Source: Opitutaceae bacterium (GTDB taxonomy: Bacteria; Verrucomicrobiota; Verrucomicrobiia; Opitutales; Opitutaceae). Taken from it: a DNA stretch of 64,000 nucleotides. Within the stretch, counting starts at the first letter, position 1; each line of letters begins with the position of its first letter. This document shows positions 2,801-23,793 of the stretch, in pieces. Where the stretch lies: contig JANQSC010000027.1 of assembly GCA_028284235.1 (NCBI GenBank), forward strand, positions 1-64,000, read 5' to 3'. The notes beneath the pieces are model-generated. The model ran no database searches and was not told the origin of the DNA. It was given only the letters and a program-made list of their open reading frames with translations. A program made the position numbers and the translations under genes.

Positions 2801-4867
2801 ATGTCCATGACCACCGCACGTAGCCAGGTCGCCTATCCAGAGACGCCCGAAATCCTACACGAACGCGACCTCCGCGTCACGGACTCCGGGGCGACCGACG
2901 AAGACCTGCTTCTCGCCTGGCGTTGGATGACCTACAGCCGCTTCACCGACAATCGCATCTTCGAACTCTACCGGCAGGGCAAAATGAAGGGAACTGTCAC
3001 CGTATCCGACGGGAACGAGGGACTTGTCGCCCCGATAGCGCTCATGATGGACAAGGCGATCGATTGCGTCTCCTGGACCCACCGCGGCATGCCCGGCCAT
3101 CTCGTCTGGTCCGACCACCTGGGCGACCACGTGTCCCAGTTTCTCGGAAATTCCGCCAGCCCCACCAAAGGACGCGAAGGCAACGCCCACCACGGCGATC
3201 CCGCCAACCGGTCCTTCCCGATGATCAGCCACCTCGGCAAAATGTCCTCCAACGTCCTCGGCGGCACCGATTCCCAAAGACGCAAAGGGCACAACGCGAT
3301 CGGCGTCACCTTCTTCGGCGACGGCGGCTCCAGCACTGGCGAGATCCACGAGAGCATGAACCTCGCCTCCGTGCTCGACCTTCCCGTCATCTTCATTGTC
3401 GAAAACAACCAGTACGCCTACTCGACCCCGCTACACGAACAGTATGCCGGAAAACTCGTCGACCGCGCCGCCGGCTACGGGATGAAAGGCATCGAGCTGG
3501 AAGTCGCCAACATCGAGGAGAATCTGAAAATTTTCCAAGACGCCATCGACGAGACCCGCGAAACCGGTCGTCCCATGCTCATCGAAGTGCACACCCTCCG
3601 GCTCCTGGGCCACGCGGGCTACGACACGCTCGACTATATCGATCCCGAGCTGTCCCAAAAATGGCTCGACGAAGATTGTCTGAAAAACCTGCGAGAACGA
3701 CTGGTCGCGGACGGCCACGGCGACCGCGTCGAAGCGGAAGAAGCGACCCTCAAGTCATTCGTCACCGAAACCGTCAACGAAGCCCTCAAGCTCCCGATGT
3801 GCCAACCCGAAGGGCTCATCGACGACGTCTACGCGCCGTCTACCACGCCAGTCGATTGGAAACCCGAAGCCGAAACCGAAACCGAAACCGAAACCGTCAC
3901 CTTCGCCCAAGCCATCAACCGAGCCCTCGCCAAGATTCTCGCCGAGTCGCCGGAATCGCTCGTCATGGGCCAGGACATCGCCGACTACGGCGGCCCCTTT
4001 AAAGTCACCAAATCCCTATTCAACACCCACGGCCGCAGTCGCGTCATCAACATGCCCATATGCGAGTCGGCCATGGTCGGCTACGCCACTGGGCAAGCAG
4101 TCAACGGGCACCGCCCCATCGTCGAATTCCAGTTCGCCGACTTCGCCACCGACGCCACCACCCAAATCACGCTCAACGCCGGCACCTACCACTTCCGCTC
4201 CGGCGCCAAAGCCCCCATGATCCTGCGCTTCCCCTGCGGCGGCGGACTCACTTTCGGCTCTTTTCACTCGCAGGACCTCGAAGCGCTCTATCTCCACATT
4301 CCCGGTACGAAATTGCTCTACCCGAGCACGCCGCAAGACGCCTACGACGCGCTGCTCGCCGCCTACGAGGACGACAACCCCGTCCTCTTTTTCGAGCATA
4401 AGAATCTCTACAACCTCCTCAAAGCGCCCGTGTCATTCAATCCCAACTACCGGGACGTTTGGCAACCCTCCCTGCGCCGCCAAGGCGACTACGCCACCGT
4501 CGTCACCTACGGCGAGATGACGCTCTGGGCCAACGACGCCCTCGACTACCTCTCCGAAGAGTACGAGCTCGAATGCGATCTCTTCGATCTGCGGGCGCTC
4601 GCCCCGCTCAACCTCGACCGGATTCGCCAGTCCGTCGCCCGCACCGGCCGCCTCGTCGTCATTCACGAGAGCCGTAGCAACGTCGGGTTCGGAGCCGAAC
4701 TCGTGGCCCGCATCACCGAAGAACAGTTCTTCGACCTCGAGGCCCCGCCCCTGCGCATCGCTTCCAAAAACATGCCCGTCCCCTTCGCCGCCGAACTCGA
4801 GGCCGACTACCGGCCCGACAAGAACAGTATCCTCAACGCCCTCGTCGACTGGATCGAAGCGGAGTAG
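2801..4867 (+). CDS. 2-oxoacid dehydrogenase E1, fused alpha and beta subunits
   Basis: 688 residues combining both halves of a heterotetrameric-type thiamine diphosphate E1. The alpha part (about 1-350) carries the ThDP motif GDGGSSTGEIHESMN with the NN at 202-203 (ENNQYAYS). The beta part (about 366-688) begins TFAQAINRALAKIL, contains the MPICESAMVGYATG region and ends with a transketolase C-terminal domain. The enzyme decarboxylates a 2-oxoacid and acylates the lipoyl group of E2. Fused E1 of this kind is common in Bacteroidetes-like and PVC genomes and usually acts on branched-chain 2-oxoacids or pyruvate; the substrate is not decided here. The linker is an ET repeat encoded by a hexanucleotide tandem. 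No E2 or E3 lies beside it, but a protein with E2-type lipoyl and binding domains is encoded at 20491-22080. Confidence 0.9.
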   Translation: MSMTTARSQVAYPETPEILHERDLRVTDSGATDEDLLLAWRWMTYSRFTDNRIFELYRQGKMKGTVTVSDGNEGLVAPIALMMDKAIDCVSWTHRGMPGHLVWSDHLGDHVSQFLGNSASPTKGREGNAHHGDPANRSFPMISHLGKMSSNVLGGTDSQRRKGHNAIGVTFFGDGGSSTGEIHESMNLASVLDLPVIFIVENNQYAYSTPLHEQYAGKLVDRAAGYGMKGIELEVANIEENLKIFQDAIDETRETGRPMLIEVHTLRLLGHAGYDTLDYIDPELSQKWLDEDCLKNLRERLVADGHGDRVEAEEATLKSFVTETVNEALKLPMCQPEGLIDDVYAPSTTPVDWKPEAETETETETVTFAQAINRALAKILAESPESLVMGQDIADYGGPFKVTKSLFNTHGRSRVINMPICESAMVGYATGQAVNGHRPIVEFQFADFATDATTQITLNAGTYHFRSGAKAPMILRFPCGGGLTFGSFHSQDLEALYLHIPGTKLLYPSTPQDAYDALLAAYEDDNPVLFFEHKNLYNLLKAPVSFNPNYRDVWQPSLRRQGDYATVVTYGEMTLWANDALDYLSEEYELECDLFDLRALAPLNLDRIRQSVARTGRLVVIHESRSNVGFGAELVARITEEQFFDLEAPPLRIASKNMPVPFAAELEADYRPDKNSILNALVDWIEAE
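3868..3897 (+). repeat. GAAACC hexanucleotide tandem in the E1 linker
   Basis: Four to five perfect GAAACC units lie in a row and encode the Glu-Thr run (about residues 357-365) between the alpha and beta halves of the E1 protein. A change in unit number would keep the reading frame and only lengthen or shorten the linker by two residues per unit. Confidence 0.85.
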
Positions 4868-8932: not shown

Positions 8933-10318
8933 ATGCCACAGGTCTCCGAACCCGCCCAAATCTGGGAAAAAGTAAAAGCCGAACTTTCCGAACTGCTCCC
9001 CCGCGACATCTTCGAGAGCTGGTTCGCTGCAGTCGAGTGCCTGCACGCCGAAGACACCTCCGTCGTGCTGCAAGTGCCCAACGAGTTTTCCGCAATCTGG
9101 ATCAACGACAACTACCTCGACCTGCTAACCAAAGCCTTCCAGCGCTTTCTCGGATACCCCGTGACCGTGTCCCTGAAAAACGACACGCAAGAAGCGCCCG
9201 CGGAAGCAGACGAGCGGAACCGCGTCGACGCCGCTCAAGACAGCGATCGCCAGGCCCGACCCGGAACGGCCGACTCCAAAAAACGCCGCCCGGACATCGC
9301 CACCCTCAACCGGCGCAACACCTTCGAGAACTTCGTCATCGGCTCCAATAGCCAGCTGGCCCACGCCGCCGCCATCGCCGTCGCCCACGCGCCCGCCGGC
9401 GCCTACAACCCGCTGTTCGTCTACGGAGAAACCGGTCTCGGCAAAACCCACCTCATGCACGCGGTCGGGCACCACATTCTGCTCAACAAGCCCGACGCTC
9501 GCGTCGCTTACCTTTCCTCGGAGAAATTCACCAACGAATTCATTTCCGCGATCCAGGACAATACCCTCACCCGATTCCGCAAACGGTACCGGAAAGTAGA
9601 CGTGCTGCTCATCGACGATGTCCAATTCCTCAGCGGCAAGGAACGGATACAAGAAGAGTTCTTCCACACCTTCAACGAGCTGTTCGAGCAGCAAAAGCAG
9701 ATCTTCCTCTCCAGCGACCGGCCCGCCAACGAAATCGCCAAACTCGAAAGCCGGCTTGTATCCAGATTCCAATGGGGACTCGTGACGGATATCCAGGCGC
9801 CCGACTTTGAAACCCGCGTCGCCATCCTCCGCAAAAAAGCCGAGCAACATAACTTCAAAGTTCACGACGAGATCATCAATTTTATCGCCGAGCACATCGT
9901 GAAGAACATCCGGCGACTCGAAGGCGCTCTCATAAAGGTCTGCAGCTACTCGTCCCTCACCGGCAACCCGCTCGATATCGCCACCTGCGAAATGCTCCTG
10001 AGCGACGTGCTGATGGAAGCCGCCAAACAGCAGCTCACCATCGACGCCATTCAAAAGAAGGTCGCCGAGTACTTCGAACTGCGGCACTCCGACATGCTAA
10101 GCCGCCGCCGGCCCAACCACATCGCCGTGCCGCGACAGATCGCCATGTACCTCAGCCGCGAACTCACCAAGCACTCGCTACAGGAGATCGGCGAAGCCTT
10201 TGGAGGCCGGGACCACGGAACTGTCATCCACGCCTGCCGCCAAGTCGAGAACCTCGTCGACCAAGACGACACCGTGCGCCACAGCGTCGACTACCTGAAA
10301 GTCCAGCTGTCCCGGTAG
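8933..10318 (+). CDS. dnaA: chromosomal replication initiator DnaA
   Basis: 461 residues with the four DnaA domains. Domain I (1-80, IWEKVKAELSELLPRDIFESWF) and a short, variable domain II (about 81-125) precede the AAA+ domain III with Walker A GETGLGKT (165-172), Walker B LLIDDVQFLSGKE, and sensor motifs. Domain IV holds the DNA-binding helix-turn-helix with the signature GGRDHGTVIHAC. It binds TTATNCACA boxes and opens the replication origin. dnaN, recF or gyrB do not follow; instead there is a small hypothetical gene, so the classical dnaA-dnaN order is broken here. Confidence 0.98.
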   Translation: MPQVSEPAQIWEKVKAELSELLPRDIFESWFAAVECLHAEDTSVVLQVPNEFSAIWINDNYLDLLTKAFQRFLGYPVTVSLKNDTQEAPAEADERNRVDAAQDSDRQARPGTADSKKRRPDIATLNRRNTFENFVIGSNSQLAHAAAIAVAHAPAGAYNPLFVYGETGLGKTHLMHAVGHHILLNKPDARVAYLSSEKFTNEFISAIQDNTLTRFRKRYRKVDVLLIDDVQFLSGKERIQEEFFHTFNELFEQQKQIFLSSDRPANEIAKLESRLVSRFQWGLVTDIQAPDFETRVAILRKKAEQHNFKVHDEIINFIAEHIVKNIRRLEGALIKVCSYSSLTGNPLDIATCEMLLSDVLMEAAKQQLTIDAIQKKVAEYFELRHSDMLSRRRPNHIAVPRQIAMYLSRELTKHSLQEIGEAFGGRDHGTVIHACRQVENLVDQDDTVRHSVDYLKVQLSR

Positions 10319-15934: not shown

Positions 15935-17350
15935 CTAGCGACTCCGCCGAGCAGCGTCTATCCTCGCCCAAGCGTCCAGCTCCGTTGCCGCTCCGTCATC
16001 GCCTTGTTCCCGCATCCAGGCGAGGAGCAAGGAGTGGAGCGTTTCCAACGTCTTCTCGTAGTCCGGGTTCGCCGACAAATCGCGCAACTCGAACGGGTCG
16101 TTCGACAAGTCATAGAGCTCGAACTCGTTCCTCACCTGATAGCGATGGTACTGGTTCAGCGCAAACGCGTCGCCTGTCTCGCCTTTGGCTCTCCAAGACG
16201 CGTATATCTTGGAATTTTCAACCACCGAGTTTCGAAATTCATTGGGTGAATTTACATTCCAAATGAGACGAAACCGGCTGTCCCTGACAGTTCGGATCCC
16301 AAACGCGTCCGGCCCGTGGTAAATCCCTTTCGATGTTTGCACGCCGTACACCTGCGTTCGGTGTTCCGCGTCAGGATTCTCGAGAACTGGGACGAAGCTC
16401 TTCCCGTCGAGATCGAATGCGCCGGGATCGCCTCCCGCGAGCTCGATACATGTGGGCAACAAATCTACATATTGAACCATAGCGCGTGTACGAGCGCCAG
16501 GGAGCACTCGCTTCGGCCATCGGATGATCTGGGCGGAACGCAAGCCGGTGTCGTAGCAGGTCCACTTGCAGTGCGGAAAGTTGGATCCTTGTTCGGAAAG
16601 AAAGACGACAACCGTGTTCTCCGATTGCCCGCGCTTTTCGATGAACTCGAGGCACCTCCCAAGTTGTTCGTCCATGTACGTTATTTCCGCATAGTATTTC
16701 GCCAGCTCGTCTCTTGTCCGCTTCGTATCCACCAAGTAGGGAGGAAGCGTCAATTCGCCTGCATCGTATTGACTCGGATCGCCTCGGTTCCAGGGAGTGT
16801 GAGGTTGATTGGAATTTACCATCAAACACCAAGGCGACTTTCCATTCTCCTGGATAAAAGCGTCTACTTTGCTCAGCTCCAGGTCTTCTCCCTGGCCGTT
16901 GTCGTGATGCCGGCCACCCAGGAATTCGAATGGAAAATTCTCCTTCGGCGAATGATGCGTCTTGCCGATCAGAGCGACTTTGTAGCCCAAGGGCTCAAGG
17001 TAGTGCGGGAAACTCCGCACGTGGTCGTAAACCCTGCTGTGATTCGGGTGGGCTCCATTCCTAACCGGATGAATGCCCGTGTAGAGACTCATGCGGGTCG
17101 GAGCGCACATCGGCGAGGAGTTGTAGGAATGCTCGAAGAGCAATCCTTCTCTCGCAAGCCCGTCAATATGGGGCGTCTCCACGTCCCCATTGCCATAGCA
17201 CCCAAAATCGTGATACGTGCAGTCGTCCGAAAGGAATATAAGAAAATTTGGCGGGTCAACTTCACTTGCTCGAACGCCCGAGGAGTAGAGGCAGGCCAAC
17301 GCGAAACATCGCATTGCAACACTTGTTAGCGTAAGAATTCGTCTTGACAT
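15935..17350 (-). CDS. secreted sulfatase (formylglycine type)
   Basis: 471 residues from the ATG at 17350, which begins a signal peptide (about 1-28, ending SSGVRAS); an ATG 105 bp further upstream would bury that signal. Alkaline-phosphatase/sulfatase fold: metal-binding LIFLSDDCTYHDFGCYG, the sulfatase signature C-x-P-x-R as CAPTR with Cys82 to be converted to formylglycine, then TGIHPVRNG and GKTHH. Expected to remove sulfate from a polysaccharide or glycan outside the cytoplasm; substrate unknown. It follows the second sulfatase by 53 bp in the same direction, so the two probably form an operon. The activating enzyme (anaerobic maturase or FGE) is not in the window. Confidence 0.92.
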   Translation of the reverse strand: MSRRILTLTSVAMRCFALACLYSSGVRASEVDPPNFLIFLSDDCTYHDFGCYGNGDVETPHIDGLAREGLLFEHSYNSSPMCAPTRMSLYTGIHPVRNGAHPNHSRVYDHVRSFPHYLEPLGYKVALIGKTHHSPKENFPFEFLGGRHHDNGQGEDLELSKVDAFIQENGKSPWCLMVNSNQPHTPWNRGDPSQYDAGELTLPPYLVDTKRTRDELAKYYAEITYMDEQLGRCLEFIEKRGQSENTVVVFLSEQGSNFPHCKWTCYDTGLRSAQIIRWPKRVLPGARTRAMVQYVDLLPTCIELAGGDPGAFDLDGKSFVPVLENPDAEHRTQVYGVQTSKGIYHGPDAFGIRTVRDSRFRLIWNVNSPNEFRNSVVENSKIYASWRAKGETGDAFALNQYHRYQVRNEFELYDLSNDPFELRDLSANPDYEKTLETLHSLLLAWMREQGDDGAATELDAWARIDAARRSR

Positions 17351-17403
17351 AACAACTACATCAAATCGACAGCGGCATTGACGAACACTGCGACAGCCTA
17401 GTC

Positions 17404-19056
17404 TCACGGATAGACATAAGGGTAAAGATTGACTCGCATCGCCCAGGATAGCCAATCGGCCCTGAGCTTTTCAGCGATCTCGGGGTGGACCGCGACGAGG
17501 TTCTCAGTTTCGCACCGATCCTCGTTTATATTGTAGAGCTCCCAAGTCCGATTGTTGTACCGGGAATTGCCTCGAACGAGCTTCCAAGGACCTTGGCGAA
17601 CGGCGCTCGATTCAAAGTGGTCGAAATACAAGGTTCGGTTCGCCAAACGACCCCTGTTTTCGAACAGCGCGACCCAGCTCAGCCCTTCTTCGGGCGCAAT
17701 TGGGAATCCGTTGAATTCCGCGGGATAGTTCGCTCCTGAAACTTCGCGAATGGTGGGCATGAAGTCGATCAAGTGAACCGGATCCCTGACCCAGCGATCG
17801 GGTTTTTGGATACCGTTTGGCCAGTGAGCGATCAAAGGACTGCAATTGCCGCCTTCGTGATTGAAATGCTTATACATGCGAAGAGGAGTGTTGCTCAAAC
17901 AAGACCATGCGCTCCCTACAGAGTGATAGGTGCCCGGTCCGCCCACTTCGTTGAGCGTCTCCGCTTCATGAACGATGTTGATTCCTCTGCGACTGGCGCC
18001 GTCGAAACCGTAAGGACCCCATTCGTAGCACGCTCCATTGTCGCTGGTTACGAGTATCAAGGTGTTTTCCAAATCGCCATTCTCTTCGAGCGCTTCGACG
18101 ATTCGGCCAACGCCGATATCTACATGCTCGATCATCGCCGCGAACGTCGCCATGCGATAGGCGAGGTCCACTTGTCGATCCTTCTCCAGACTGTCCCAAG
18201 TAGGATTGACCTGCCCCGCATAGTGGTTGGCAACTTCAGGCTTGTCCTCCGGAACCTGAGAAAGCCCCGTAAAGGACCAGGAGTCGTCCGCGAGGCCGAT
18301 TGCCATTTGCCGCTCGTATCTTTTCTCTCGGAGCGTGTCCCAACCCCTAAGGTAAGTGGCCACATACTTGTCTCGAGTCGAGGCCGGGGCGTGCAACGGG
18401 AAATGGGGCGACGAATGAGCGAGGTACAGGAAAAATGGCCGTCCCGAACTCTGCCCTTGGCGAACGAACTCGACCGCATAGTCGCTAAACGCGTCCGTCG
18501 CGTAAAAATCCTCTCTGTCATACTCGATTTCGAGAGCGCGGCCTTCGGGTAGGCGAATGTTTTTTGCAGGATCCCACTGGTCGGCCGCATAGCCGCGGAC
18601 GTAACCATAGTACTCGTCAAATCCTCGGTCGGTCGGCAGTTCCTGATGTCCCACATGCCATTTCCCGACTCCGTAGGTCGCATAACCCGCTGCTCGCAAT
18701 ACCTCGCCGAGAGTCACGCACGTTTTATTGAGACGCCCAAGATACGCAGGACCTCTTTCTTCGGTCCGGTCTCTACCCGTGAAGTTTGCAATGCCGGTTT
18801 GGTGCGAATAAAGCCCCGTCAATAAACTAGCCCGTGAGGGGCAACAACGCGCGGAATTGTAGCTTTGCGTGAACCTGAGCCCCCCTTTCGCGAGAGCGTC
18901 CATATGAGGCGTTTCGATTTCTCCTCCGAAGCTTCCAAGGTCGGAATACCCCATGTCATCCAGGAGAATAATCACCACGTTGGGCGGCGCGGCGACAAGG
19001 TTTAGACCGGCGAGAAGCGACAAATGAAAAAGTCCTACAGCTACGAGTCGTTTCAT
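17404..19056 (-). CDS. secreted arylsulfatase (formylglycine type)
   Basis: 550 residues. Signal peptide MKRLVAVGLFHLSLLAGLNLVAA, then NVVIILLDDMGYSDLGSFGGEI (metal-binding Asp-Asp), sulfatase signature CCPSR with Cys71 as the formylglycine site, followed by ASLLTGLYSHQTG and the second motif GVGKWHVG. It belongs to the arylsulfatase A-like group and has the full catalytic core plus a C-terminal subdomain (FDHFESSAVRQGPWKLV). It is first in a two-gene sulfatase unit. Marine Verrucomicrobiota use many such enzymes to degrade sulfated algal polysaccharides such as fucoidan; the exact substrate here is unknown. Confidence 0.94.
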   Translation of the reverse strand: MKRLVAVGLFHLSLLAGLNLVAAPPNVVIILLDDMGYSDLGSFGGEIETPHMDALAKGGLRFTQSYNSARCCPSRASLLTGLYSHQTGIANFTGRDRTEERGPAYLGRLNKTCVTLGEVLRAAGYATYGVGKWHVGHQELPTDRGFDEYYGYVRGYAADQWDPAKNIRLPEGRALEIEYDREDFYATDAFSDYAVEFVRQGQSSGRPFFLYLAHSSPHFPLHAPASTRDKYVATYLRGWDTLREKRYERQMAIGLADDSWSFTGLSQVPEDKPEVANHYAGQVNPTWDSLEKDRQVDLAYRMATFAAMIEHVDIGVGRIVEALEENGDLENTLILVTSDNGACYEWGPYGFDGASRRGINIVHEAETLNEVGGPGTYHSVGSAWSCLSNTPLRMYKHFNHEGGNCSPLIAHWPNGIQKPDRWVRDPVHLIDFMPTIREVSGANYPAEFNGFPIAPEEGLSWVALFENRGRLANRTLYFDHFESSAVRQGPWKLVRGNSRYNNRTWELYNINEDRCETENLVAVHPEIAEKLRADWLSWAMRVNLYPYVYP

Positions 19057-19743: not shown

Positions 19744-20487
19744 ATGCCCGACTTGAGGAGCTACCACCCGAATCTCTCCCCCGACCAACCCGAGATCGCG
19801 CTCTCCAGCGAGGAGTCCCAACACTTGGTGGCCGCCAATCGCGGGCGGAACGGCGACCCGGTGACCGTCTTCGACGGCGAAGGGCGCGAATGGGAATGCG
19901 ATCTCGTCGAGGCCGACAAACGCTCCGCTCGACTGCTAGGGCGCTCGTTCACTCAACATTCGCCCCCTAATTCCACCATCGCTCTCGCCCAAGCGATTCC
20001 CAAGGGGAAAGGCCTCGAGGCGATCGTTCGCAAAGCGACCGAATTGGGAATCCAAAGCGTCTACCCCCTCGTCACCAACCACACGGAGATGAAAATCAAG
20101 GCGGATCGCGCAGAGACAAAATCCGAAAAATGGAAAACCGCGGCGATCGAGGGCGCCAAACAAAGCGGAAACCCGTTCATCCCAAAAATCCATGCCGCCC
20201 GCGGACTTGAACAGCTGATCGAGGAAACTGCCGACTCGTTCGCCATCCAACTGGTCGCGTCGCTGCAACCCAACAGTCTCTCGACAAAACAAGCCCTCGG
20301 CTCACGCGCCCCCGCGGACTCTCCGTCCGCCTTGATTCTAATCGGGCCCGAAGGCGATTTTTCCGATCGCGAATACGCCGCCATCGCCGCCGCTCGCTTC
20401 CAGCCCATCACTCTCGGACCCCACGTACTCAAGTGCGAAACCGCTGCGGTTGCCGCCTTGAGCATTCTGCGACACGAGCTCGGATAA
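19744..20487 (+). CDS. rsmE: 16S rRNA m3U1498 methyltransferase
   Basis: 247 residues, RsmE length. An N-terminal PUA-like domain (about 1-70, with HLVAANRGRNGDPVTVFDGEGREW) precedes a SPOUT methyltransferase domain ending in the knot motif LIGPEGDFSDREYAAI and LGPHVLKCETAAVAAL. QAIPKGKGLEAIVRKATELGI is the family's substrate-loop segment. It methylates N3 of U1498 of 16S rRNA using SAM. It is convergent with the next gene; only 3 bp separate the stops. Confidence 0.93.
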   Translation: MPDLRSYHPNLSPDQPEIALSSEESQHLVAANRGRNGDPVTVFDGEGREWECDLVEADKRSARLLGRSFTQHSPPNSTIALAQAIPKGKGLEAIVRKATELGIQSVYPLVTNHTEMKIKADRAETKSEKWKTAAIEGAKQSGNPFIPKIHAARGLEQLIEETADSFAIQLVASLQPNSLSTKQALGSRAPADSPSALILIGPEGDFSDREYAAIAAARFQPITLGPHVLKCETAAVAALSILRHELG

Positions 20488-20490
20488 GCG

Positions 20491-22080
20491 TTACCAGGTC
20501 ATCAAGCCACCCGCGTAGGTGAACCCCGCCCCGACAGAACAGAAAATGATCTTGTCGCCCGCTTCGAAAATCCCTTCTTCCGCCGCCCAGCCCAAGGCCA
20601 TCGAAACCGATGCCGCCGACGTGTTGCCGTACTTGCCTACGGTCACGATGAACTTTTCGTAGGAGATTCCCACGCGTTTGCTCACGGCTTTGAGGATGCG
20701 GGCATTCGCTTGATGCGGCACAATCCAGGAAACGTCTTCTTCGGAAAGCCCGTGACGTTTCATGGCGCTCTCGATAATATCGGAAAACGCCAGTACCGCT
20801 CGTTTGAATACAACCCCGCCGTCGAGCTGTATGTAGAACGAGTCGAGACTGTCGCCCGGCTGCGGAATCGGGTTCATCGCCCCGCCGCCCGTGCGGCAAA
20901 TCGCCTGCGTGAAGCGCGAATCGCCGCTGAGCTCGTGCCGATAGAAGCGGTGGCCGCCTTCCTGCGGGGTCATCACGGCCGCGCCGGCGCCGTCGCCAAA
21001 CAAAAACGCCGTTTCATGGTCTTTCGAATTGGTAATCTTCGACAGAATCTCCGCGGTCACGACGAGCGCGTTCTTCGCCGTTCCCCCGGCGATGAAGGAG
21101 CGTCCCACTTCCAACGCGTACAGCCAGCCGGAGCACGCCGCGTTCAAATCGAATGCCAAAGCCTGCCCGATCCCCAGTTCTTTCGCCAAAGCGCTCGCGG
21201 CGCCCGGAACCGGCTGGTCGGGCAACAAGGTGGCCACGATAACCGCGTCGATGTCGTCCACGGACATTCCCGCCATTTCCAGGGCTTTACGGGTCGCCTC
21301 GGTCGCGAGGCTCGTCGCCGACTCGCCCTCGCTGATCACGTAACGCTGCTTGATTCCAGTAACTTTCTCGATCTCCGCCGCCGTCTTGCCCGGAAACTCC
21401 TTTAGAATCTCTTCGTTGGACCGAGCGTTCTTCGGAACCGCGTAGCCAATTCCTGCGACACGCACCGTTTGCGACTCCGGCGACGAAGCCGATGCCACCT
21501 GCGGCGCCGGCGAGTCGCTCGTTTCCGCAGCGCCTTTATATTGATCGAGATCGTCCGCAGTCACTCGCCCTCCAGGGCCCGTTCCAGCGATGTCCGTGAT
21601 CGAATCCGGATCCAATCCACGCTCCTTCGCCAACTTCCGAGCCTTGGGCGTCCAGCGAGGACCGCCGCTCGCCGCAGGAGTCGCGCACGGAGCGACTGCA
21701 GCCGGCTCGGCGACCGGAGCGACCTCCGTCAAAGGCGCCACCACCGGCGCGGCTGCCGCGGTTGGGCTCGACTCTGGCTTCGCCGCAGATTCACCTCCGT
21801 CCCCGTCGACTTCCAAATGGCGCATCGACTCGTCCTCCGTCTCCATACGGAAGAAAGGCACCCCAACGTCCAGAATGTCGCCCGCACGGCAGAGAAAGCT
21901 CTTTATCGTCCCGGCGCAGGGCGCCTCGAAATCGAAAATCGACTTGTCGCTCTCCAGCTCCGCGAGTTTCTCGCCTTTCTCAACCGACTGGCCCGTCTCG
22001 CAAATCAAGTCGATCAGCGTGATCTCGTTCACAGTCGCGCCCATCGAAGGAATCGGCACTTCTATTAGCAGCTTAGACAT
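20491..22080 (-). CDS. lipoyl domain + E1/E3-binding domain + ketoacyl-ACP synthase III fusion
   Basis: 529 residues. Residues 1-82 form a lipoyl domain with the modified Lys46 in ESDKSIFDFEAP. An Ala/Pro-rich linker (about 95-138) leads to a peripheral subunit-binding domain (141-181: TPKARKLAKERGLDPDSITDIAGTGPGGRVTADDL pattern), both as in dihydrolipoyl acyltransferase E2. Instead of the E2 catalytic domain, residues 206-529 are a complete KAS III (FabH): Cys316 in AACSGW, His456 in PHQAN, Asn486 in YGNTS, plus GDGAGA and the C-terminal GAGFTYAG. KAS III starts fatty acid synthesis by condensing an acyl starter with malonyl-ACP. The fusion suggests that acyl groups made by a 2-oxoacid dehydrogenase pass from the lipoyl arm to the synthase. 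It lies 57 bp after pyrG in the same direction. Confidence 0.93.
   Translation of the reverse strand: MSKLLIEVPIPSMGATVNEITLIDLICETGQSVEKGEKLAELESDKSIFDFEAPCAGTIKSFLCRAGDILDVGVPFFRMETEDESMRHLEVDGDGGESAAKPESSPTAAAAPVVAPLTEVAPVAEPAAVAPCATPAASGGPRWTPKARKLAKERGLDPDSITDIAGTGPGGRVTADDLDQYKGAAETSDSPAPQVASASSPESQTVRVAGIGYAVPKNARSNEEILKEFPGKTAAEIEKVTGIKQRYVISEGESATSLATEATRKALEMAGMSVDDIDAVIVATLLPDQPVPGAASALAKELGIGQALAFDLNAACSGWLYALEVGRSFIAGGTAKNALVVTAEILSKITNSKDHETAFLFGDGAGAAVMTPQEGGHRFYRHELSGDSRFTQAICRTGGGAMNPIPQPGDSLDSFYIQLDGGVVFKRAVLAFSDIIESAMKRHGLSEEDVSWIVPHQANARILKAVSKRVGISYEKFIVTVGKYGNTSAASVSMALGWAAEEGIFEAGDKIIFCSVGAGFTYAGGLMTW

Positions 22081-22137: not shown

Positions 22138-23793
<1,656 letters not shown>

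Follow-up and report, generated by a model that had tools for sequence, protein, structure and literature searches.

The window analysed here is the whole stretch of 64,000 nucleotides from an Opitutaceae bacterium, and its minus strand carries at 20491–22080 a gene encoding a 529-aa protein in which a lipoyl domain, a peripheral subunit-binding domain (PSBD) and a ketoacyl-ACP synthase III (KAS III) are fused. The reading frame starts with an ATG at 22080 and ends with a stop codon at 20491–20493, and the plus-strand frame of the same interval is interrupted by stops. The first-pass annotation had described a single 529-residue frame with lipoyl Lys46, a PSBD and the KAS III triad; the description and its coordinates were right, and the strand is the minus one. 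The next gene upstream encodes a CTP synthase (22138–23793, minus strand), and the convergent neighbour is an RNA methyltransferase gene (19744–20487, plus strand). Two further minus-strand ORFs with overlapping ends were observed at 15935–17455 and 17404–19056; both carry a Cys-x-Pro-x-Arg signature, which we take to mark them as sulfatase-like.

Domain architecture and predicted structure

Domains were assigned using Pfam, and all matches given below exceeded the cut-offs and lie on the minus strand. The lipoyl domain (residues 1–83; 21832–22080) was matched by Biotin_lipoyl (PF00364; residues 7–78, 1.9e-12), and its candidate lipoyl-lysine, K46 (21943–21945), sits in the motif ESDKS. It is followed by an Ala/Pro-rich linker (residues 84–140; 21661–21831; A+P 40%), the E3/E1-binding PSBD (residues 141–181; 21538–21660; E3_binding, PF02817, residues 144–178, 4.7e-12) and the KAS III domain (residues 204–529; 20494–21471), which was matched by ACP_syn_III (residues 310–385, 1.6e-25) and ACP_syn_III_C (residues 441–529, 1.7e-29). 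The triad residues C316, H456 and N486 correspond in the alignment to E. coli FabH residues C112, H244 and N274. The catalytic core of 2-oxoacid dehydrogenase E2 (2-oxoacid_dh, PF00198) had no Pfam match in the protein, and the sole NCBIfam model over its cut-off was a KAS III one.

An AlphaFold model from 12 sequences was poor (pLDDT 61), and the model from 88 sequences was good (pLDDT 87.8), with the lipoyl, PSBD and KAS III domains ordered and the linkers below a pLDDT of 50 at residues 98–138 and 186–197. Foldseek placed this model close to the FabH structures 4ryb (TMt 0.94) and 1hn9 (TMt 0.95). The linker had a median length of 52 aa across 85 fused proteins. An equivalent of K46 was present in all 23 lipoyl proteins of the lone or split kind and in all 85 fused ones, the latter by construction because the fused set had been chosen by the E-S/N-D-K motif.

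Residues of the CoA site

Adenine in CoA-bound E. coli FabH is stacked between Trp32 and Arg151 and bonded by Thr28, and Arg36 together with two Asn holds the phosphopantetheine, as described in the accessible text of PMC4606726, which compares a FabH with this complex. The KAS III sequences were aligned to E. coli FabH after contained duplicates had been removed, whereby 156 matches gave 122 different sequences, namely 95 KAS III linked to a lipoyl-PSBD (62–100% identical to the KAS of the window) and 27 ordinary FabHs of the phylum (35–40%), 12 of which came from the same family, including the FabH of the window's own genome. T28, W32, R36, R151 and F304 (E. coli numbering) were each present in 27/27 ordinary FabHs and in 0/95 linked KAS III; the substitutes in the linked set were Glu at position 32 (90/95), His at 151 (83/95) and Val at 304 (95/95). 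C112, H244, N274, N247 and R249 were retained in all 122 sequences, and position 214 of the linked KAS III was Lys in 92 and Arg in 3; R249 and K214 are presumably the basic residues with which FabH docks ACP. An earlier, smaller alignment (24 linked KAS III and 27 ordinary FabHs) gave the same split at the CoA site.

With T28, W32, R36 and R151 replaced and the triad and R249 kept, the linked KAS III appears equipped to condense on ACP and not to hold CoA as FabH does. This replacement is the strongest single evidence for a donor other than CoA, for which the protein's own lipoyl arm would be the obvious candidate; the lost contacts would also be compatible with an ACP-bound or other donor.

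Distribution of the fusion in the family

The 95 different linked KAS III sequences comprised 85 intact fusions, 9 sequences whose gene immediately follows a separate one for lipoyl-PSBD, and one with a disrupted frame (L177:3001-4915, a close relative from a UBA7389 MAG), in which the lipoyl and KAS parts lie in different frames. The intact fusions occupy a single open frame of 509–552 aa with the lipoyl motif present; five of them had been called split by the motif rule and were counted as fused since no stop interrupts the frame across the lipoyl part. Named fused relatives were 55–85% identical to the window protein. The first-pass annotation had proposed that the spread of the three-domain order be counted, and had named a frameshift or assembly error as what would overturn it. 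The order recurs in these 85 fusions, accompanied by the 9 split forms, and a mis-join is ruled out because 85 of the 95 linked sequences lie in one intact frame. An artefact joining two genes is thus of negligible probability: the disrupted frame of L177 is the one observation in its favour and does not concern the window gene, and independent assemblies yielding 85 different intact sequences refute it.

Among the matches listed from 288 genomes of the phylum, full-length matches were confined to the window's own family (11 of 25 family genomes), and four further genomes of this family (G160, G010, G283 and G099) had a KAS III of 57–65% identity with the lipoyl part out of its frame. A linked-type KAS III match at E ≤ 1e-90 was found in 139 of 200 family genomes. 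The labels of the 80 listed among 267 confirmed loci were Opitut-, Pelagicoccus, Ereboglobus or Rariglobus in 59 cases and other Verrucomicrobiota in 19 (including 2 Akkermansia), with 2 being neither (L204 and L231).

The window's genome was the sole one of the 200 with two matches at 1e-90. Its second fusion copy (525 aa; L002:196-1773, plus strand, contig C66) is more divergent, with 57–60% identity, and has a gene for a TetR-type regulator placed divergently beside it (L069). The CoA-site residues of this copy (the L007 row of the alignment) have likewise been replaced.

A putative partner E1

A gene for a fused E1 alpha–beta 2-oxoacid decarboxylase (E1ab) lies at 2801–4867 on the plus strand, and its domains, its nearest solved chains and its co-occurrence with lipoyl-PSBD point to it as the partner of the fusion. 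E1ab was matched by PF00676, PF02779 and PF02780 (E1_dh, Transket_pyr and Transketolase_C), which are E1 alpha and beta domains. The nearest solved chain of the beta half was 1um9 (8.6e-59), a 2-oxo acid E1 beta that we take to be from Thermus, followed by 2-oxoisovalerate or branched-chain E1 betas; pyruvate E1 betas came next, starting at 1.9e-55. The alpha half matched branched-chain chains at best at 9.4e-28 and pyruvate ones at best at 1.3e-21. The nearest NCBIfam models were pyruvate dehydrogenase ones, all below cut-off. By similarity, E1ab would be of the branched-chain type.

Among 148 good family genomes (completeness of 90% or more, contamination of 5% or less), 133 contained both E1ab and lipoyl-PSBD, 9 neither, 2 only E1ab and 4 only lipoyl-PSBD; over all 200 family genomes, 173 and 10 were in agreement and 9 and 8 were not. 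The exceptions with E1ab only (G329 and G398) and with lipoyl-PSBD only (G391, G418, G453 and G428) are all drafts of at least 200 contigs, and the E1ab match of G391 (3e-89) fell just short of the 1e-100 line set for presence. The nine double absences are spread over five genera. Two of the genera, g6 and g15, each include genomes with both genes as well as genomes lacking both, a pattern suggestive of repeated joint loss. A Fisher test of the co-occurrence gave 5e-10, a figure that ignores relatedness.

In the window, some 16 kb separate E1ab from the fusion, and the two do not form one operon. The same holds for several genomes belonging to the window's genus or to a near one, where the distance is roughly 10–18 kb. 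An ORF that appears DnaA-like by eye (8933–10318, plus strand) is located about 4 kb from E1ab.

E2 acyltransferases and FabH in the genome

A profile search of the window's own genome (97% complete) returned two PF00198 matches, on contigs C38 and C81, and both proteins passed NCBIfam cut-offs, one as the E2 of pyruvate dehydrogenase (PDH) and the other as that of 2-oxoglutarate dehydrogenase (OGDH). No third or branched-chain E2 for E1ab was found in this search, and with the two acyltransferases being of PDH and OGDH type, none is left over for E1ab. The suggestion that genomes with the fusion may lack both a normal branched-chain E2 and a separate FabH therefore held for the E2, only the PDH and OGDH acyltransferases being recognised, and failed for FabH, a canonical copy of which is present beside a plsX-like gene (L001). 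Because this FabH is retained, the fusion looks like an additional, second entry and not a replacement of the first.

The OGDH E2 (368 aa; L095:7443-8549, minus strand, contig C38) was observed to be without a detectable E3-binding domain, and a genome of the window's genus (G223) had just one E3-binding match outside its fusion. A further KAS III-like protein (L004:1477-2511, minus strand, contig C75) exceeded the cut-off of the PRK09258 model and neighbours an alpha/beta hydrolase-like ORF; the two presumably resemble an ole-type pair.

Split and lone forms

Thirty-six good genomes bear E1ab and have no linked-type KAS III at 1e-90, and 34 of them keep lipoyl-PSBD. In the 14 examined, the lipoyl-PSBD gene stands alone near the same CTP synthase gene (14/14; about 150–205 aa; in L142 a 437-aa open frame ends in it), and the stretches around it contained no linked KAS III. 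Six of the 14 (G155, G116, G207, G363, G382 and G399) had no third E2 match either. The persistence of lipoyl-PSBD in 34 of 36 genomes without linked KAS implies that it has some function independent of the KAS; ordinary FabH or another E2 core could possibly serve as its acyl acceptor there.

The order of events was examined in a quick tree of KAS domains (28 fused, 9 split, 18 of the 27 FabHs and E. coli FabH), for which the method warned of long branches at the root, and in a careful tree of lipoyl-PSBD (33 of the 85 fused, 9 split, 14 lone and 4 distant E2 domains as the root). The KAS tree separated the linked KAS III from FabH (SH-aLRT 100) and placed the split forms as one clade inside the fused ones (SH-aLRT 98), and the lipoyl-PSBD tree placed the split and lone forms together as one clade inside the fused ones (100/98). 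With the split forms nested in fused ones in both trees and the lone forms in the latter, the fusion seems to be old, to have been split later and to have then lost its KAS from the place. Loss of the KAS from the locus may have occurred twice, perhaps, and both tree roots rest on long branches. A path from lone lipoyl-PSBD through an adjacent KAS to the fusion was considered, and the trees argue against it.

At least three PF00198 matches were found in 25 of the 36 good E1ab-bearing genomes without linked KAS versus 13 of the 99 with it. The idea that fusion-lacking E1ab genomes own a third, branched-chain E2 was dropped in view of weak matches lying in frames of more than 1000 aa. A weak PF00198 match (~100 bits) in such a frame occurred in 15 of the 22 genomes examined, and in 3 of 3 without full-length E1ab. 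Three of these proteins (L132:71-4120, plus strand; L133:2962-6351, minus strand; L135:772-3909, plus strand) were checked and are single-chain E1 alpha–E1 beta–lipoyl–E2 proteins without a PSBD match. Judged by the size and order of the genes around them, the E2s in the vicinity of E1ab in L091 and L092 are apparently parts of OGDH clusters.

Fatty acid profiles

The fusion occurs in Pelagicoccus mobilis KCTC 13126 (L172), which identical DNA shows to be genome G390, a 97%-complete draft with the fusion, E1ab and two PF00198 matches. Its predominant polar-lipid fatty acids are aiC15:0 (anteiso), C16:0 and C16:1w7 according to the accessible text of PMC13274419. Other species in the published tables consulted likewise contain branched fatty acids. 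Lacunisphaera limnophila has 48.6% iso-C15:0 in the part of PMC5303756 available to us. Genome G274, taken as this species, is without full-length E1ab and without lipoyl-PSBD and has a 2-oxoacid_dh match in a frame of 1048 aa. Another route to branched fatty acids therefore exists in the family, plausibly through a single-chain E1–E1–lipoyl–E2 protein in G274. Branched fatty acids alone prove nothing for a route through the fusion, and the informative case is a bearer without a third E2 match.

Discussion

We consider it probable, at about two chances in three, that the fusion is a condensing enzyme carrying its own acyl-delivery arm, on which a branched acyl group would pass from the lipoyl group to the KAS cysteine without CoA. 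E1ab would decarboxylate a branched 2-oxo acid and reductively acylate the lipoyl group on Lys46, while the PSBD would dock E1 and/or E3, the latter re-oxidising the lipoyl arm. The flexible linkers would bring the S-acyl-dihydrolipoyl arm to Cys316, and condensation of the acyl-enzyme with malonyl-ACP would yield a branched beta-ketoacyl-ACP, so that an E2 acyltransferase core and free acyl-CoA would be skipped; ordinary FabH would presumably be kept for straight-chain starts from acetyl-CoA. We infer each chemical step, the substrate class and the lipoylation of K46 from sequence. The first-pass annotation had proposed a transfer from lipoyl to KAS without CoA that yields branched starters, and this proposal gains partial support from the CoA-site residues replaced in 95/95 linked sequences, the co-occurrence with E1, the failure to find a third E2 and the anteiso fatty acid of a bearer with two E2 matches; the persistence of lone lipoyl-PSBD without this KAS is what speaks most against it. 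With somewhat less assurance, we favour viewing the system as a CoA-independent gate, a 2-oxoacid dehydrogenase whose E2 core has been swapped for a condensing enzyme, in which decarboxylation, lipoyl carriage and the first C–C bond of a branched fatty acid would be the work of one machine.

The readings that compete with direct hand-over of branched acyl groups differ in which part they give up. The lipoyl arm may feed the KAS cysteine and yet serve acetyl or ordinary chains, transfer of the acyl group to ACP without condensation, or a specialised metabolite. The nearest NCBIfam models of E1ab, being pyruvate dehydrogenase ones, would agree with such a role, though all were below cut-off, and the second, more divergent fusion copy could be specialised; most of the nearest solved E1 chains nevertheless bear branched-chain or 2-oxoisovalerate labels, the genome also encodes a distinct PDH that has an E2 to itself, R249 and K214 are retained, and Pelagicoccus mobilis contains anteiso-C15:0, so that we regard this reading as unlikely. 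Less probable again is a mere docking device, in which the lipoyl domain and PSBD tether KAS III to the dehydrogenase and the KAS takes dissolved acyl-CoA or acyl-ACP. The PSBD is a docking domain, the triad is intact, and W32 is not kept by every thiolase-fold enzyme that uses acyl-CoA, OleA being an example, all of which would suit a tether. The CoA-holding residues, however, are replaced in every linked sequence and kept in 27/27 ordinary FabHs, and the lipoyl lysine, needless for a pure tether, is kept in 23/23 lone or split proteins.

We give a still smaller chance to the PDH or OGDH E2 core passing the lipoyl acyl group to CoA in trans, with KAS III being incidental or using the CoA ester. 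This would account for the stand-alone lipoyl-PSBD in all 14 fusion-lacking E1ab genomes examined, six of them with no more than two E2 matches, but the fused KAS III has lost its CoA contacts and yet conserves the triad, and the trees do not derive the fused form from the lone one.

Direct hand-over from the lipoyl arm would join elements of several known systems. The fusion shares its fold, the Cys-His-Asn triad and Arg249 with FabH (E. coli 1HN9 and Neisseria 4RYB), and differs from it in the attached lipoyl arm and PSBD and in the replacement of T28, W32, R36, R151 and F304. The order of N-terminal lipoyl domain, Ala/Pro-rich linker and PSBD is that of the E2 dihydrolipoamide acyltransferases, whereas KAS III stands where the CoA-dependent 2-oxoacid_dh core would be. 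The E3-binding protein, or protein X, consists of lipoyl domain, PSBD and a degenerate, inactive E2-like core; it likewise has no working E2 core, but the fusion has a complete condensing enzyme as its third domain. Textbook initiation runs through CoA, to which the lipoyl arm delivers the acyl group and from which FabH picks it up. Initiation by branched-chain 2-oxoacid dehydrogenase (BCKDH) and FabH resembles the predicted route in turning branched 2-oxo acids into branched starters for type II synthesis. The accessible text of PMC10026030 describes branched acyl-CoA from the BCKDH route as the precursor that starts synthesis in Staphylococcus aureus, and that of PMC9328018 proposes branched initiation by BCKDH and FabH for Akkermansia. 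Unlike the S. aureus system, the condensing enzyme here holds the arm itself, and the genome yielded no E2 to go with the E1.

The open-access literature searched, from which preprints were absent and in which subscription papers were few, yielded no description of a lipoyl domain together with FabH, and for PSBD with a ketoacyl enzyme only other complexes among the matches listed, as far as their accessible text goes. Broader searches of open-access literature gave no such fusion enzyme among the matches listed. Both halves of the fusion are known enzymes, and what would be new is the predicted direct hand-over. We know of no precedent for such a step from lipoyl to KAS. Standard NCBI models name only the KAS III part, and the route is therefore hidden in annotation.

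If true, the proposed mechanism would represent a new kind of carrier-to-carrier hand-over by an enzyme widespread within a bacterial family. It would explain how bearers lacking any recognisable E2 of the branched-chain type come to contain anteiso or iso fatty acids, and would provide a ready-made module for routing amino-acid carbon skeletons into branched lipids.
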